DNA of 7,244 nt. It comes from Actinomycetota bacterium (GTDB taxonomy: Bacteria > Actinomycetota > Actinomycetes > Streptosporangiales > Streptosporangiaceae). The notes beneath the pieces were generated by a model. That model was not told the DNA's origin and made no database searches. It was given only the letters and a program-made list of their open reading frames with translations. The stretch spans positions 1 to 7,244 of the forward strand of contig PMST01000139.1 of the NCBI GenBank assembly GCA_003168295.1. The letters run 5' to 3'. Each line of letters starts with the position of its first letter. Position 1 is the first letter of the stretch. Made by a program: the position numbers and the translations under genes. Positions 1,136-7,244 of the stretch are shown one piece after another.

Positions 1136-2761
1136 TTAGCCAACGAACAGCTGGTTCGCAGCGTGGCTGGCCAGGCTCAGGACCGGTTCTGGCACGATGC
1201 CGAGCACCAGGGTCGCCAGCACGCCCAGCCCCACCACGCTGCCGGTGAAGACGGTCGGGAGCACCACCTGCGGGCCGTCCGGGATCGGGTCGCTGAAGAA
1301 CATCAGCACGATGATGCGGACGTAGAAGAACGCCGCGATCGCGCTGGCCAGCACGCCCACGATCACCAGCGGCGTCTCGCCGGAGGCGATGGCGGCCTGG
1401 AAGACGGCGAACTTCCCGGTGAAGCCGCTGGTCAGCGGGATGCCCGCGAAGGCCAGCAGGAACAGCGCGAAGATGCCCGCCAGCAGCGGGGACCGGCGGC
1501 CCAGGCCGGCCCAGCGGGAAATGTGCCCGGCCTCGCCACCGGGATCCCGGACCAAGGTGATGACCCCGAACGCGCCGACCGTGGTCAGGCCGTACGAGGC
1601 CAGGTAGAACAGGCTGCCAGAAAGCCCGGCCACGCTGGTCGCGATGACCGCGGTGAGCACGAACCCGGCGTGCGCGATCGAGGAGTAGGCCAGCAGCCGC
1701 TTGACGTCCGTCTGGGTGATGGCGATGACCGCGCCCGCGACCATGGTCAAGACGGCGACCACCCACAGCGCCGGGCGCCAGTCCCAGGTCAGGTTGCCGA
1801 ACGCCACGTAGAACACGCGCAGCAGGGCGCCGAAGGCCGACACCACCGTGCAGGACGCCATCAGCGCGGTGATCGGCGTCGGGGCGCCCTGGTACACGTC
1901 CGGCTTCCAGCTGTGGAACGGCACCGCCCCGATCTTGAACAGCAAGCCGGTGCCGACCAGCGCGATACCCGCGAACAGCAGCGTGGAGTTCGCGGTGTTG
2001 CTGGCCGCCGCCGACGCGATCGCCGGGAGCGAGACCGAGCCGGCGAAGCCGTACAGCATCGCGACACCGAACAGGAAGAAGGCCGAGGAGAAGGCGCCGA
2101 GCAGGAAGTACTTCATGGCCGCCTCGTGCGAGAGCAGCCGGCGTCGCCGGGCCAGCCCGCACAGCAGGTACAGCGGCAGCGACAGCACCTCAAGCGCCAC
2201 GAACATGGTGAGCAGGTCGTTCGCGGCCGGGAACATCAGCATCCCGCCGATCGCGAACAGCGTCAGCGGGAAGATCTCGGTGTGGAAGATCCCGGCCACC
2301 AGGCCTTCGCGCTCCTCGGCGCTGCCGGGAGTAGCGGCGGCCTGCGCGGCGAACGGGCTGTTGCTCGAGTCACCGATAAGAAGCATGCTCGCGAAGGCAA
2401 GCACCAGGATCGTTCCCTGAATGAACAGGGTCGGGCGGTCGACCGCGATCGCCCCCATCGCGGCGATGTGGCCCGGGCTGCCGTCGGCGAAGATCTTATG
2501 GGTCCCGGCGATCACAATCGTCATGATGAACGCGGCGGCCAGCGAGCCCAGGGCGAGGATCAGGTGCACGGTGCGGCGGAACGGGCGCGGCACGAACGCC
2601 TCCACCAGGACGCCGACGACCGCCGCGCCGAAGACGATCAGCATCGGCGCGAGCTGGCTGTACTCGATGCTCGGCGGGCTGATGGTGCCGCTCGCGCTGC
2701 CCGAGGAGATAACGGCCGCAGGAGCGGCCAGGGCCGCGGGGGCGGCGAGGACCGCGATCAC
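1136..2761 (-). CDS. nuoN: NADH-quinone oxidoreductase subunit N
   Basis: Antiporter-like subunit N, the proton channel closest to the quinone-reactive end of the membrane arm. It has 541 residues, about the length recalled for streptomycete NuoN. Translation starts at GTG (2761), which overlaps the nuoM stop as GTGA; AGAAGGG lies nine bases upstream. No other in-frame start codon was seen before M40, so the Ala-rich N-terminus (about 30 residues before SIEYSQLAPM) is probably real. Seen channel residues: E191 in ALEVLSLPLYLL, K217 in EAAMKYFLLGAF, K276 in LLFKIGAVPFHSW and K450 in GFTGKFAVF. The lysine expected in helix 8 (the TKV of relatives, K247 in E. coli numbering as I recall) is valine here: V306 in ASCTVVSAFGALLR, codon GTG at 1846-1844. 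The rest is full length and undisturbed, so it is not a pseudogene. It is the last nuo gene; stop TAA. Confidence 0.96.
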   Translation of the reverse strand: MIAVLAAPAALAAPAAVISSGSASGTISPPSIEYSQLAPMLIVFGAAVVGVLVEAFVPRPFRRTVHLILALGSLAAAFIMTIVIAGTHKIFADGSPGHIAAMGAIAVDRPTLFIQGTILVLAFASMLLIGDSSNSPFAAQAAATPGSAEEREGLVAGIFHTEIFPLTLFAIGGMLMFPAANDLLTMFVALEVLSLPLYLLCGLARRRRLLSHEAAMKYFLLGAFSSAFFLFGVAMLYGFAGSVSLPAIASAAASNTANSTLLFAGIALVGTGLLFKIGAVPFHSWKPDVYQGAPTPITALMASCTVVSAFGALLRVFYVAFGNLTWDWRPALWVVAVLTMVAGAVIAITQTDVKRLLAYSSIAHAGFVLTAVIATSVAGLSGSLFYLASYGLTTVGAFGVITLVRDPGGEAGHISRWAGLGRRSPLLAGIFALFLLAFAGIPLTSGFTGKFAVFQAAIASGETPLVIVGVLASAIAAFFYVRIIVLMFFSDPIPDGPQVVLPTVFTGSVVGLGVLATLVLGIVPEPVLSLASHAANQLFVG

Positions 2762-4443
2762 GGTGCGGTTCCCTTCTGGGCGACGGTGGCGGGATGCGCG
2801 GGGACCGGATCAGTCATGTGCACCTGCGCCATGGTCACGCGGACGGCGGGGTTGATGATGTCGAGCACCGGCTTGGGGTAGACCCCGACCCCGACCAGCA
2901 GCACGATCAGCGGCGCGACCGCGAGCAGTTCCCGCGGGCGCAGGTCCTTCATCCCCGCCACCTGCTCGCGGACCGGCCCGCCCATCGTGCGCTGGTACAT
3001 CCACAGGATGTAGATCGCGGCCAGGATGATCCCCGCGGTGGCCAGGATGGCCGGCAGCTTGTACCGGGAGAACGTCCCGACCAGGACAAGGAACTCGCTG
3101 ACGAAGGTGGAAAGGCCGGGCAGCGAGAGCCCGGCCAGGCCGGAGATGAGGAACAGGCCGGCCAGCACCGGGGCGACCTTCTGCACGCCGCCGAAGTCCG
3201 CGATCCGGGACGACCCGCGCCGGGTGATGAGGAACCCGGCCAGGATGAACAGCGCGCCGGTGGCGAACCCGTGGTTGACCATGTACAGCGTCGCGCCCGC
3301 CACGCCCTGGCTGGTCATCGCGAAAATACCGAGCGCGATGAAGCCGAAGTGCGAGACCGAGGTGTAGGCGATCAGCCGCTTCATGTCCTGCTGGCCGATC
3401 GCGACGATGGCTCCGTACAAGATCCCGACCACGGCCAGCGCGATCACCAGCGGCGTGAAGTACTTCGCGCCGGCCGGGAACAGCTCGAAGCAGTACCGCA
3501 GCATCCCGTAGGTGCCGACCTTGTCCAGCACGCCGACGAGCAGCACGGCCGCGCCGGGCTGGGAGGCCGCGGCGGCGTCGGGCAGCCAGGTGTGGAACGG
3601 CCACAGCGGCGCCTTGATCGCGAACGCGATGAAGAACCCGAGGAACAGCCACTTCTGCACGGTCGGGCTCAGCGAAATCTGGCTGAGCTCGCTGAACAGG
3701 AACGACCCGTGGTGGCCGGTGACGCCGCTGTGCGTGGAGTACACGTAGAGCGCGATCACCGCGACCAGCATGAGCAGCCCGCCGAGCAGGCTGTAGAGCA
3801 GGAACTTGACCGCCGCGTACTGCCGCTTGCCGACCCCGTAGCTGCCGATCATGAAGTACATCGGCACCAGCATGGCCTCGAAGAACACGTAGAACAGGAA
3901 GACGTCGGTGGCCGCGAAGACCCCGATCATCATCGTCTCGAGCACCATCATCAGCGCGAAATACGTCTTGACGCTGTGCTGCTTGGCCGCCCCCCCAGAG
4001 GGGGGCCCGGGGGGTATGGGGGGGCGGGCAGCCCCCTCATGAGCAGGGGGGGTCTGGGGGGGATCGTTCCCCCCGGGGGTAACAGCATCCGCGTCGTGCC
4101 ACGAGGCCAGGATCACCACCGGCATCAGGACCGCGGACATCGCGATGAGCACCAGCGCGATGCCGTCCACGCCGAGCGCGTAGTGCACGCCGAAGGCCGG
4201 GATCCACGAGTAGACCTCGGTGAACTGGTAGTTCGGCCCGCCGACCTGGAACTTGACCGCGATGATGATCACCACGACGAGCGTCACCAGCGAGAACGCC
4301 AGCGCGAGCCATTTGGCCAGCGCCTCGCGCGCCCGCCGGTCGGCGGCGGCGCTGTCCTGAGGCAGGCCGGGGATCAGCGCGATCACGATCGCGCCGAGCA
4401 GCGGCACCGCGCCCGCGACGGTCAGCCAGGGAAACCCGTTCAT
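2758..4443 (-). CDS. nuoM: NADH-quinone oxidoreductase subunit M with a Pro/Gly-rich loop insertion
   Basis: Middle antiporter-like proton channel of the complex I membrane arm. It has 561 residues, longer than remembered actinobacterial NuoM by roughly 30. Channel residues are in place: E189 in FFEAMLVPMYF (helix 5), K277 in FAIKAPLWPFHTWLPD (broken helix 7), K308 in GVLDKVGTYGM (helix 8) and E450 in STFVSEFLVLVG (helix 12). The extra length lies at about residues 120-152, between helix 3 (about 95-114) and helix 4 (about 160-178). It contains 11 prolines in residues 122-150 and is encoded by G/C runs (see the repeat entry). By the known topology of the family this loop faces the cytoplasm, so the channel could stay intact. 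The ATG overlaps the nuoL stop by one base and has a GAGG sequence five bases upstream. The stop overlaps the nuoN GTG. A normally conserved Glu after HTWLPD is Ala (A293). Confidence 0.97.
   Translation of the reverse strand: MNGFPWLTVAGAVPLLGAIVIALIPGLPQDSAAADRRAREALAKWLALAFSLVTLVVVIIIAVKFQVGGPNYQFTEVYSWIPAFGVHYALGVDGIALVLIAMSAVLMPVVILASWHDADAVTPGGNDPPQTPPAHEGAARPPIPPGPPSGGAAKQHSVKTYFALMMVLETMMIGVFAATDVFLFYVFFEAMLVPMYFMIGSYGVGKRQYAAVKFLLYSLLGGLLMLVAVIALYVYSTHSGVTGHHGSFLFSELSQISLSPTVQKWLFLGFFIAFAIKAPLWPFHTWLPDAAAASQPGAAVLLVGVLDKVGTYGMLRYCFELFPAGAKYFTPLVIALAVVGILYGAIVAIGQQDMKRLIAYTSVSHFGFIALGIFAMTSQGVAGATLYMVNHGFATGALFILAGFLITRRGSSRIADFGGVQKVAPVLAGLFLISGLAGLSLPGLSTFVSEFLVLVGTFSRYKLPAILATAGIILAAIYILWMYQRTMGGPVREQVAGMKDLRPRELLAVAPLIVLLVGVGVYPKPVLDIINPAVRVTMAQVHMTDPVPAHPATVAQKGTAP
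2771..2777 (-). promoter_or_regulatory. Ribosome binding site of nuoN
   Basis: AGAAGGG on the minus strand within the last codons of nuoM, nine bases before the GTG at 2761. It supports the GTG start that overlaps the nuoM stop. Confidence 0.55.
3990..4062. repeat. 10-base inverted repeat arms within the nuoM insert
   Basis: The bases CCCCCCCAGA at 3990-3999 recur as the exact reverse complement TCTGGGGGGG at 4053-4062, with 53 bases between the arms. The match stops at both ends of the arms. The arms could act as terminal or subterminal inverted repeats of a small element, or simply reflect the runs of C and G; the shared non-run bases AGA/TCT favour a real repeat. Confidence 0.6.
4000..4028 (+). 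other. Canonical G-quadruplex motif on the nuoM template strand
   Basis: Four G runs (6, 6, 7 and 3 bases) are separated by loops CCC, TAT and C, which fits the standard G3+ N1-7 pattern. Because nuoM is read from the minus strand, the G-rich strand is the template and the mRNA is C-rich here. A folded quadruplex would therefore affect RNA polymerase or replication rather than the ribosome. The motif itself is certain; its folding in the cell is inferred. Confidence 0.65.
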
Positions 4444-6350: not shown

Positions 6351-6648
6351 AGTACTTCAGCAGGTTGGCGTCGTCCACCGACGCCGACCGGCGGGCCCGG
6401 TAGATAGCCATCAAGATCGCGAGGCCGACGACGACCTCGGCGGCGGCCACCACCATCACGAAAAACGCGATGACCTGCCCGTCCAGGTTGCCGTGCATGC
6501 TAGCGAACGCGACGAACGCCAGGTTGCACGCGTTCAGCATCAGTTCCACGCACATGAAGATGACGATGGCGTTACGCCGGACCAGCACGCCGACGGCGCC
6601 GATCACGAACAGGATCACCGACAGGGACACGTAATGCACCGGGCTCAT
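6349..6648 (-). CDS. nuoK: NADH-quinone oxidoreductase subunit K
   Basis: Small membrane subunit K (ND4L homologue) of complex I, between NuoJ and NuoN in the membrane arm and part of the central hydrophilic axis that relays protons. It has 99 residues, the usual length, with three transmembrane helices at about 5-23, 27-50 and 58-82. The two buried glutamates that mark the family are present: E35 in the segment [14 protein letters not shown] and E71 in [10 protein letters not shown], matching E36 and E72 of the E. coli protein. The ATG is preceded by a strong GGGGAGGG Shine-Dalgarno sequence with seven bases of spacing, and overlaps the nuoJ stop as ATGA. The stop TGA is four bases before the nuoL ATG. 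Nothing in the sequence departs from the family. The short C-terminal tail ([16 protein letters not shown]) is polar. Confidence 0.97.
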
Positions 6649-7244
6649 GCGTCGGCCCTCCCCGACGACGCGGACTCGCGCCCGCTTTCTGCCTCAATGG
6701 CATCCTGCTCTTTTGGAGGCCGAACGGACGGTGCTGCGTCCGCCACGCCACGCGGGGCGAGTGTCGTGCTGACCGACAGATCGGAGGTCGTGCCGTCCGG
6801 CAGCAGGGCCGGCCGGTCGGCGGCGTCGTGCAGCGCGTACACCCCCGGCGACGGGTCCGGCGCCATGTGGCCGCTCTCCAGCCTCCTGGCCGCGAGCTGC
6901 CGCTGCGTCGGCCGGGGCGTGGTGCGCTCGCGGTGCGCGAGCACCATCGCGCCGAGCGCCGCGGTGATCAGCAGCGCGCCGGTGACCTCGAACGGGAACA
7001 CGTAGGTGGTGAAGATCAAGGTGGCGAGCCCGGAGAGGTTGTTCGTTCCGTTCGCCGCGGTGGCCGGGGTCGCCGGACCGAGGGCGGCGTGCCCGACGCC
7101 GAGGATCAAGATCACGAAAAAACCGATGGCGACCAGGCCGGCGGCCATCCGCTGGCCCTTGATCGTCTCGGTGACCGAGTCCGCCGAGCTGACCCCGATT
7201 AGCATGATGACGAACAGGAACAGCATGAGGACCGCGCCGGTGTA
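6645..7244 (-). CDS. nuoJ: NADH-quinone oxidoreductase subunit J, 5'-truncated by window edge
   Basis: Membrane subunit J of complex I, which sits near the quinone-reactive module and helps couple quinone reduction to proton pumping. The reading frame is open to the right edge: six codons (Tyr-Thr-Gly-Ala-Val-Leu) precede the first visible ATG at 7226. Together they form the family's third transmembrane helix ([17 protein letters not shown]), so the ATG at 7226 is internal and the true start lies outside the window. Two more hydrophobic segments follow (about residues 28-48 and 75-96 counted from that ATG). The last 95 or so residues are hydrophilic, beginning LAHRER and including [21 protein letters not shown] tail with this kind of sequence is, as I recall, typical of actinobacterial NuoJ. 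The final residues use unusually AT-rich codons (see findings). The stop TGA overlaps the nuoK start by four bases (ATGA), implying translational coupling. Confidence 0.95.
6656..6663 (-). promoter_or_regulatory. Strong ribosome binding site of nuoK
   Basis: GGGGAGGG on the minus strand inside the end of nuoJ, seven bases before the nuoK ATG. It fixes that start and suggests nuoK can also initiate independently of nuoJ translation. Confidence 0.65.

Follow-up and report, generated by a model that had tools for sequence, protein, structure and literature searches.

The nuoM gene of this actinobacterial contig raises the question of how a NuoM protein comes to carry an additional proline-rich stretch in the loop between helices 3 and 4. 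In the window, by which we mean the whole 7,244-nucleotide stretch of DNA that was analysed, nuoM lies on the minus strand (2758..4443) and forms a single complete open frame of 561 amino acids. The codons of the linker (residues 120-155; 3979..4086, minus strand) are flanked by those for SWHDAD, which ends at residue 119, and HSVKTYFALMM, which starts at residue 156. The original prediction held that this loop contains about 30 extra residues of low complexity, with 11 prolines in residues 122-150, and both figures were confirmed when recounted on the protein. The solved M. smegmatis NuoM (8e9g chain M) has 4 residues opposite 33 residues of the window protein (123-155). The linker is also much shorter in relatives such as P0043, whose NuoM is ~90% identical and whose linker reads SWHDADDVGAAKHSVKTYF, 30 residues fewer. 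The AlphaFold model of NuoM is of low quality (mean pLDDT 46.9; 32 similar sequences) and serves only to indicate coil at 120-157; from the general topology of the antiporter-like subunits of complex I, the linker would be on the cytoplasmic side.

Our analysis indicates that the segment is very probably a copy of a mobile repeat, short and probably non-autonomous, that has spread in Streptosporangiaceae-like actinobacteria and is tolerated in frame. The copy matches positions 1-87 of the repeat model at 4003..4090 on the minus strand, sense to nuoM (82.9 bits, E 2.8e-17); this score is set by construction, as the window copy is included in the model's own alignment, and independent support comes from BLAST matches elsewhere. 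The other model hits in the window are two weak ones on the plus strand, both within the same stretch. All parts of the copy are read on the minus strand. It begins with a T-rich head, GCTGTTAC (4079..4086), which in other copies reads CTGTTTC, TGTCTGCC and similar. This is followed by hairpin 1, GGGGGGA-ACGA-TCCCCCC (4057..4074), and by the hairpin 2 region, CATGAGGGGG-CTGCCCG-CCCCCCCATA (4015..4041), which is taken from the consensus and which the window copy alone is not predicted to form. The 3′ part consists of a C-run and a variable GC-rich tail, CCCCCCGGGCCCCCCTCTGGGGGGG (3990..4014), and the sequence after the C-run differs between copies. The insertion had been placed at 3988-4086; the insertion itself stands, while its conserved part is better drawn from ~4090 to ~4003, followed by the GC-rich tail as far as ~3990. 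Folding of the window copy alone was no better than that of shuffles (z -1.16 and -0.19). Complementary stretches of 9 nt are present near both of its ends (4006-4014 with 4069-4077), and G/C runs give such stretches easily. No Rfam family was matched in the window. Elsewhere in the window, NuoJ (6645-6960, minus strand) was observed to have a long hydrophilic C-terminal tail.

Dispersal of the repeat was counted in related genomes rather than in the window's own genome. BLAST with the 99-bp insert (E ≤ 0.01) returned 11 matches in G076 and 29 in G020, some of only ~30 bp; they lie at unrelated loci, the best with 94% identity over 72 bp. These two genomes belong to one genus, their NuoM proteins are 86% and 81% identical to that of the window, and neither of these proteins contains a full element. 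A family-wide BLAST, in which 4 candidates were scored per genome, identified 7 of 200 genomes with an insert match at E ≤ 1e-5. The repeat model was built from 35 aligned copies, the window copy among them, and the scores of those 35 follow by construction. Searches with this model gave 24 matches in G076 and 52 in G020 at E ≤ 0.01. At E ≤ 1e-5, there were 16 matches in G001 (a Streptosporangiaceae MAG), 8 in G009, 3 in G031, 22 in G167 and 25 in G177, and the same search returned 0 in G007 and G002. The copy-bearing genomes are ~4 to 9.5 Mb in size, and the element-bearing genomes are in hundreds of contigs each. When the model was run over 80 named nuo loci, 6 weak hits were obtained (E ≤ 0.1, 22-31 bits). 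Two loci of G020 on different contigs, L199 (C144) and L201 (C394), have a near-identical upstream flank, which may reflect a duplicated gene or a second strain. Of 14 genomes, 2 had genes for Y1 transposase, and G076 was the only one of the 7 copy-bearing genomes with them, some of these genomes being possibly incomplete; a Y1 transposase as the mover is therefore unsupported.

The positions of the copies relative to genes were classed with our own codon-score script, which covered 104 copies at 100 loci; of 106 model matches, two partial ones were omitted (L226 1614-1677 and L257 2000-2061). Among the 150 matches listed, 102 of the 104 classed copies are found, with 2 additional copies on the same loci and the other 48 listed matches lying outside the classing. 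The largest class consists of copies in frame within one ORF that is open through the copy (42 of 104). A further 26 lie between frames on the same strand, 2 are in the same frame with a stop, 10 lie between opposite-strand genes, and 14 have a coding signal on one side only, while 5 are unclear and 5 are at contig edges. Both orientations are represented among the in-frame copies, 30 of the 42 being antisense and 12 sense, and this antisense excess may mean that a Gly-rich reading is tolerated better than a Pro-rich one. Many of the 28 copies that lie on the same strand but change the frame or contain a stop look like gene junctions. In 12 of the 28, the upstream stop codon is no more than 10 nt from the near edge of the copy, and a Pfam search on 5 of them detected no family on both sides and left one side family-free in 2. 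At one of these loci, L195, the two families can occur within one protein, so this copy might lie in a broken gene. ARAGORN detected no tRNA gene in 30 dispersed loci for which an in-frame host was not evident.

Pfam scans of 40 of the 41 in-frame ORFs (L261:1130-5158 was left out) showed domains flanking the copy on both sides or spanning it in 27, on one side only in 8, and no family in 5. The 27 include PurH in G020, GlnE (sense in G076, antisense in G177), PknG (sense in G076, antisense in G001), enzymes of the RimO/MiaB type (sense in G177, antisense in G167), GltB (at different places in G020 and G009) and NuoG (antisense in both G076 and G020). Additional hosts are a class I tRNA ligase of the valyl type, CarB, an acyltransferase E2, FolP-HPPK, Mfd-like and Lhr-like helicases, an iron-sulphur subunit and AMP ligases. 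Their opposite orientations in different genomes argue that the insertions in GlnE, PknG and the RimO-type gene were independent; the NuoG copies of G076 and G020 are possibly one event. The Mfd-like ORF of G177 (L224 307-3084) has two in-frame copies. In L257 (1112-2665), the element separates the Pterin_bind (FolP-type) and HPPK domains of a single ORF, and it may have fused two genes. The original prediction, an undescribed element whose insertion into essential-type genes is tolerated, was thus borne out by a multicopy repeat that is present in sister genomes and in frame in many conserved genes. No account of this repeat was found in the literature on RPE, REP and MITE elements, in a search that reached few of the subscription journals.

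Relatives also have sites without the element. PurH was aligned from 12 of 13 genomes, G036 being excluded for its split match, and the element is present in G020 only; the rows of G001 and G029 are without it and have longer loops there. The PknG of G002 is likewise without it, and the NuoG proteins of the relatives shown are ~5 to 14 residues shorter than those of G076 and G020. At the DNA level, the PurH copy stands in for a variable loop of ~10 residues rather than splitting an identical one. No target-site duplication could be read at PurH, where the flanks are too diverged, and no clean empty site was found at the DNA level.

A related repeat was found behind tRNA genes. In a model search of 296 genomes of the class, 6 matched at E ≤ 1e-6, namely G076 and five others (best 50-55 bits), and 49 matches were listed in those five and G031 at E ≤ 0.001. 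For these 49 listed matches, 30 loci were checked for tRNAs. A same-strand tRNA ends 35-76 nt upstream of the repeat in 21 of the 30 (L329 and L346 share one tRNA), and a tRNA lies downstream in 1 of the 30. The tRNA 3′ end is visible by eye in L313, L326, L330 and L337. The tRNA-trailing repeat comes after a terminator-like hairpin, for instance in L314 (1390-1581), L315, L325, L327 and L331, and Rfam matched only tRNA in nine related loci. A pattern search was also performed for a tRNA T-arm followed after 60-90 nt by GGGGGNCGACCCCC, which spans hairpin 1 only and some of whose matches are not tRNAs. This gave 158 matches in 35 of 80 chosen genomes, compared with 1 for the reversed pattern; in the dispersed-copy genomes it gave none in G076, G020, G167 and G177, 2 in G001 and 1 in G009.

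The tRNA-linked copies were then compared with the dispersed ones after the rows of G031, which has the tRNA type and would match itself, were removed (3 of 106 dispersed and 5 of 33 tRNA-linked). Against the dispersed copies, the median score of the tRNA-linked copies was 58.1 bits (range 38.3 to 68.9), and shuffles that keep homopolymer runs reached a maximum of 41.9 bits in 30 rounds. The two repeats are thus very likely related. We can speculate that the dispersed in-frame element is an escaped tRNA-trailing repeat which spread into coding genes in the window's clade, perhaps with a precursor tRNA as intermediate, much like a bacterial SINE, or with an enzyme that aims at terminator T-tracts. 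This is a tentative suggestion, to which we would give a minority chance.

The association with tRNA genes and terminator-like hairpins, for which 35 of the 80 chosen genomes gave matches to the pattern, also bears on a different reading of the repeat. According to this, it is kept by positive selection as a useful signal, such as a recombination site, a terminator or a pause in transcription or translation, and the insertions into genes are by-products. The 12 of 28 frame-changed or stop copies that have an upstream stop codon at most 10 nt from their edge would fit such a role. However, the copies within genes are scattered, occur in both orientations and are missing at the same site in relatives, which looks like spread. 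We therefore regard a useful signal as unlikely, if deserving of attention, and favor a mobile repeat.

It is far less probable that the segment is an ordinary, fast-evolving low-complexity linker whose G/C runs grew in place by slippage, and that no mobile element is involved. Unrelated Ala/Pro-rich linkers of similar length do occur at the same NuoM site in other lineages, and some copies have extra tandem units (L142, L159 and L170), so slippage seems to act on the element. Nevertheless, in-place growth sits poorly with 94% identity over 72 bp to an unrelated locus in another genome and with the presence of copies in both orientations in other genes. The anatomy of the repeat also stands against it. 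The repeat is ~85 bp long and consists of a T-rich head and two G/C hairpins, in this fixed order across 35 aligned copies. The consensus reads T-rich head (e.g. CTGTTTC), CCCC, GGGGGG-ACGA-CCCCCC, C-run, CAY-GGGGGG-CTGCCCG-CCCCCC-RTA, CCCCCCTGG, it folds as two local hairpins, and its 3′ end is variable across copies. In L170 (585-660, G020 contig C397), two first-hairpin units lie head to tail, 39 bp apart, as a half-length form. Over the whole structure, 36 cells have paired changes. Shuffles gave 10.6, with none of 500 reaching the observed number, and sliding the partner columns gave 2-6. Compensatory stem changes are found above all in hairpin 2. Counted by pairs in which both sides have changed, the signal was not unusual (5 versus 3.7 in shuffles; 73 of 500 as high). 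The case for structure rests on the paired changes and not on the folding of the single window copy.

The NuoM proteins themselves were examined in the best 120 homologues of 8000 hits, among which the loop between LASW and YFALMM ranges from 20 to 62 residues. By regex, these 120 rows comprise 37 full element-like, 31 half-element-like, 10 short and 42 other loops; these labels are loose protein-level calls, with "half element" inferred from codons and a few such rows being plain Ala/Pro linkers. A stricter regex on the same rows gave 27 full, 25 half, 10 short and 58 other. Full element-like loops are most frequent in the nearest relatives among the 120. On a tree of the 120 proteins, for which the linker was left out of the alignment, the full-element label (37 rows) requires at least 13 changes and the half-element label (31 rows) 18; starred branches force 5 and 10 of these, respectively. 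Two rows (P0060 and P0082) do not differ over 521 kept columns and have unlike linkers. Alignment with relatives, which the original prediction had proposed as a check, showed that the segment is missing in P0043 and common to many close relatives. The concern that the same length and composition would be seen across the order was not realized, as full element-like loops come and go on the tree. Since many close relatives share it, sequence comparison indicates that the NuoM insertion is inherited or recurrent rather than fresh. The linker would be permissive anyway, since other lineages place unrelated Ala/Pro linkers of similar length there. In each of G178, G139, G067, G144, G105, G027, G126 and G061, one TGA was read inside the NuoM match.

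The frame of the copies speaks to whether the segment reaches the protein at all. If it were removed from the RNA as an intron-like element, or bypassed by the ribosome, it would be absent from NuoM, and the G/C hairpins and the presence of copies in conserved genes without obvious loss could be read in this way. Removal would make the frame irrelevant, so the excess of in-frame copies counts against it: the frame is kept in 42 copies, whereas 28 on the same strand change it or contain a stop. Of those 28, moreover, 12 lie within 10 nt of the upstream stop, and the 5 checked with Pfam show no family on both sides, nor is there an Rfam match in the window. We consider removal or bypass highly improbable, and the conservation of frame suggests that the segment is translated into protein. 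As long G/C runs are difficult to sequence, an assembly artefact was a concern from the outset, but it is exceedingly improbable given that P0002, a separate ENA contig whose NuoM is 99% identical, has a linker identical to the window's, that closely similar loops occur in many other records, and that the frame is kept throughout.

Based on these observations, we propose that the mobile repeat would move as DNA or RNA, through the action of some enzyme, with copies landing in either orientation. The copies are built of G and C runs (G+C of 0.69-0.85 each) and so hold few stop codons, and a copy of suitable length could thus be read through. The mean number of stop-free frames per copy is 4.56 of 6, close to the 4.41 from composition alone; the openness of the copies is thus due to base composition and not to special design. 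Intragenic copies would persist where the frame is kept and the site is a loop or linker, and other copies would persist at gene junctions. The NuoM copy, read in sense, would make the linker ahead of helix 4 a coil rich in Pro and Gly, and its effect on the protein is probably near-neutral. The element may descend from the tRNA-trailing repeat.

Several families of bacterial repeats are similar in kind. RPEs are described as short multicopy repeats that are intergenic or fused in frame in conserved protein genes (PMC2229807, PMC10969869), with a length of 105-146 bp, long stem-loops and terminal inverted repeats (PMC2229807). Like RPEs, the repeat reported here is short, dispersed and multicopy, and has in-frame copies in conserved protein genes (42 of 104). 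In contrast to the RPEs of intracellular alphaproteobacteria, it is ~85 bp long, has two separate G/C hairpins and actinobacterial hosts, and has a tRNA-trailing relative. RPEs have a long terminal stem; here the consensus folds as two local hairpins, and the window copy has 9-nt complementary stretches near its two ends, easily made by G/C runs. By analogy, the repeat would appear to work as RPEs do. Kinship or membership is not claimed, because a long terminal stem is not predicted, the hosts belong to a different phylum, and the likeness is one of description and not of sequence. Wolbachia coding palindromes are reportedly of a similar kind to RPEs. MIRUs are small actinobacterial repeats, mainly intercistronic, found at gene junctions where they touch stop and start codons. 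Compared by features and not by sequence, the repeat may resemble MIRUs in the upstream stop at most 10 nt away in 12 of 28 frame-changed or stop copies; unlike MIRUs, 42 copies are intragenic.

REP/RAYT elements of the GTAG and CGTC types are dispersed hairpin repeats, some of which are inside genes (PMC3733652). No GTAG or CGTC tag is present at the feet of the consensus hairpins on either strand; CGTC occurs only at the hairpin 1 loop, on the other strand. Unlike in REP/RAYT systems, a Y1 transposase is found in just one of seven copy-bearing genomes. For MITEs, in-frame fusions of intragenic copies are known in several bacteria (PMC10969869). The repeat resembles MITEs in being small, dispersed and without genes of its own; no clear terminal inverted repeats were seen in the window copy beyond short G/C-run complementarity near its ends, and the diverged flanks at PurH revealed no target duplication.

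In the intracellular bacterium Rickettsia, in-frame repeat fusions in conserved genes have been described at high frequency (PMC10969869). If actinobacteria, whose genomes here are ~4 to 9.5 Mb, undergo a similar process, it is not confined to intracellular hosts. The repeat would also supply a natural insertion scan of housekeeping enzymes, indicating which loops tolerate ~30 foreign residues. Further, it would connect a repeat that invades proteins with one that trails tRNA genes, so that the question of how such repeats move would become testable.
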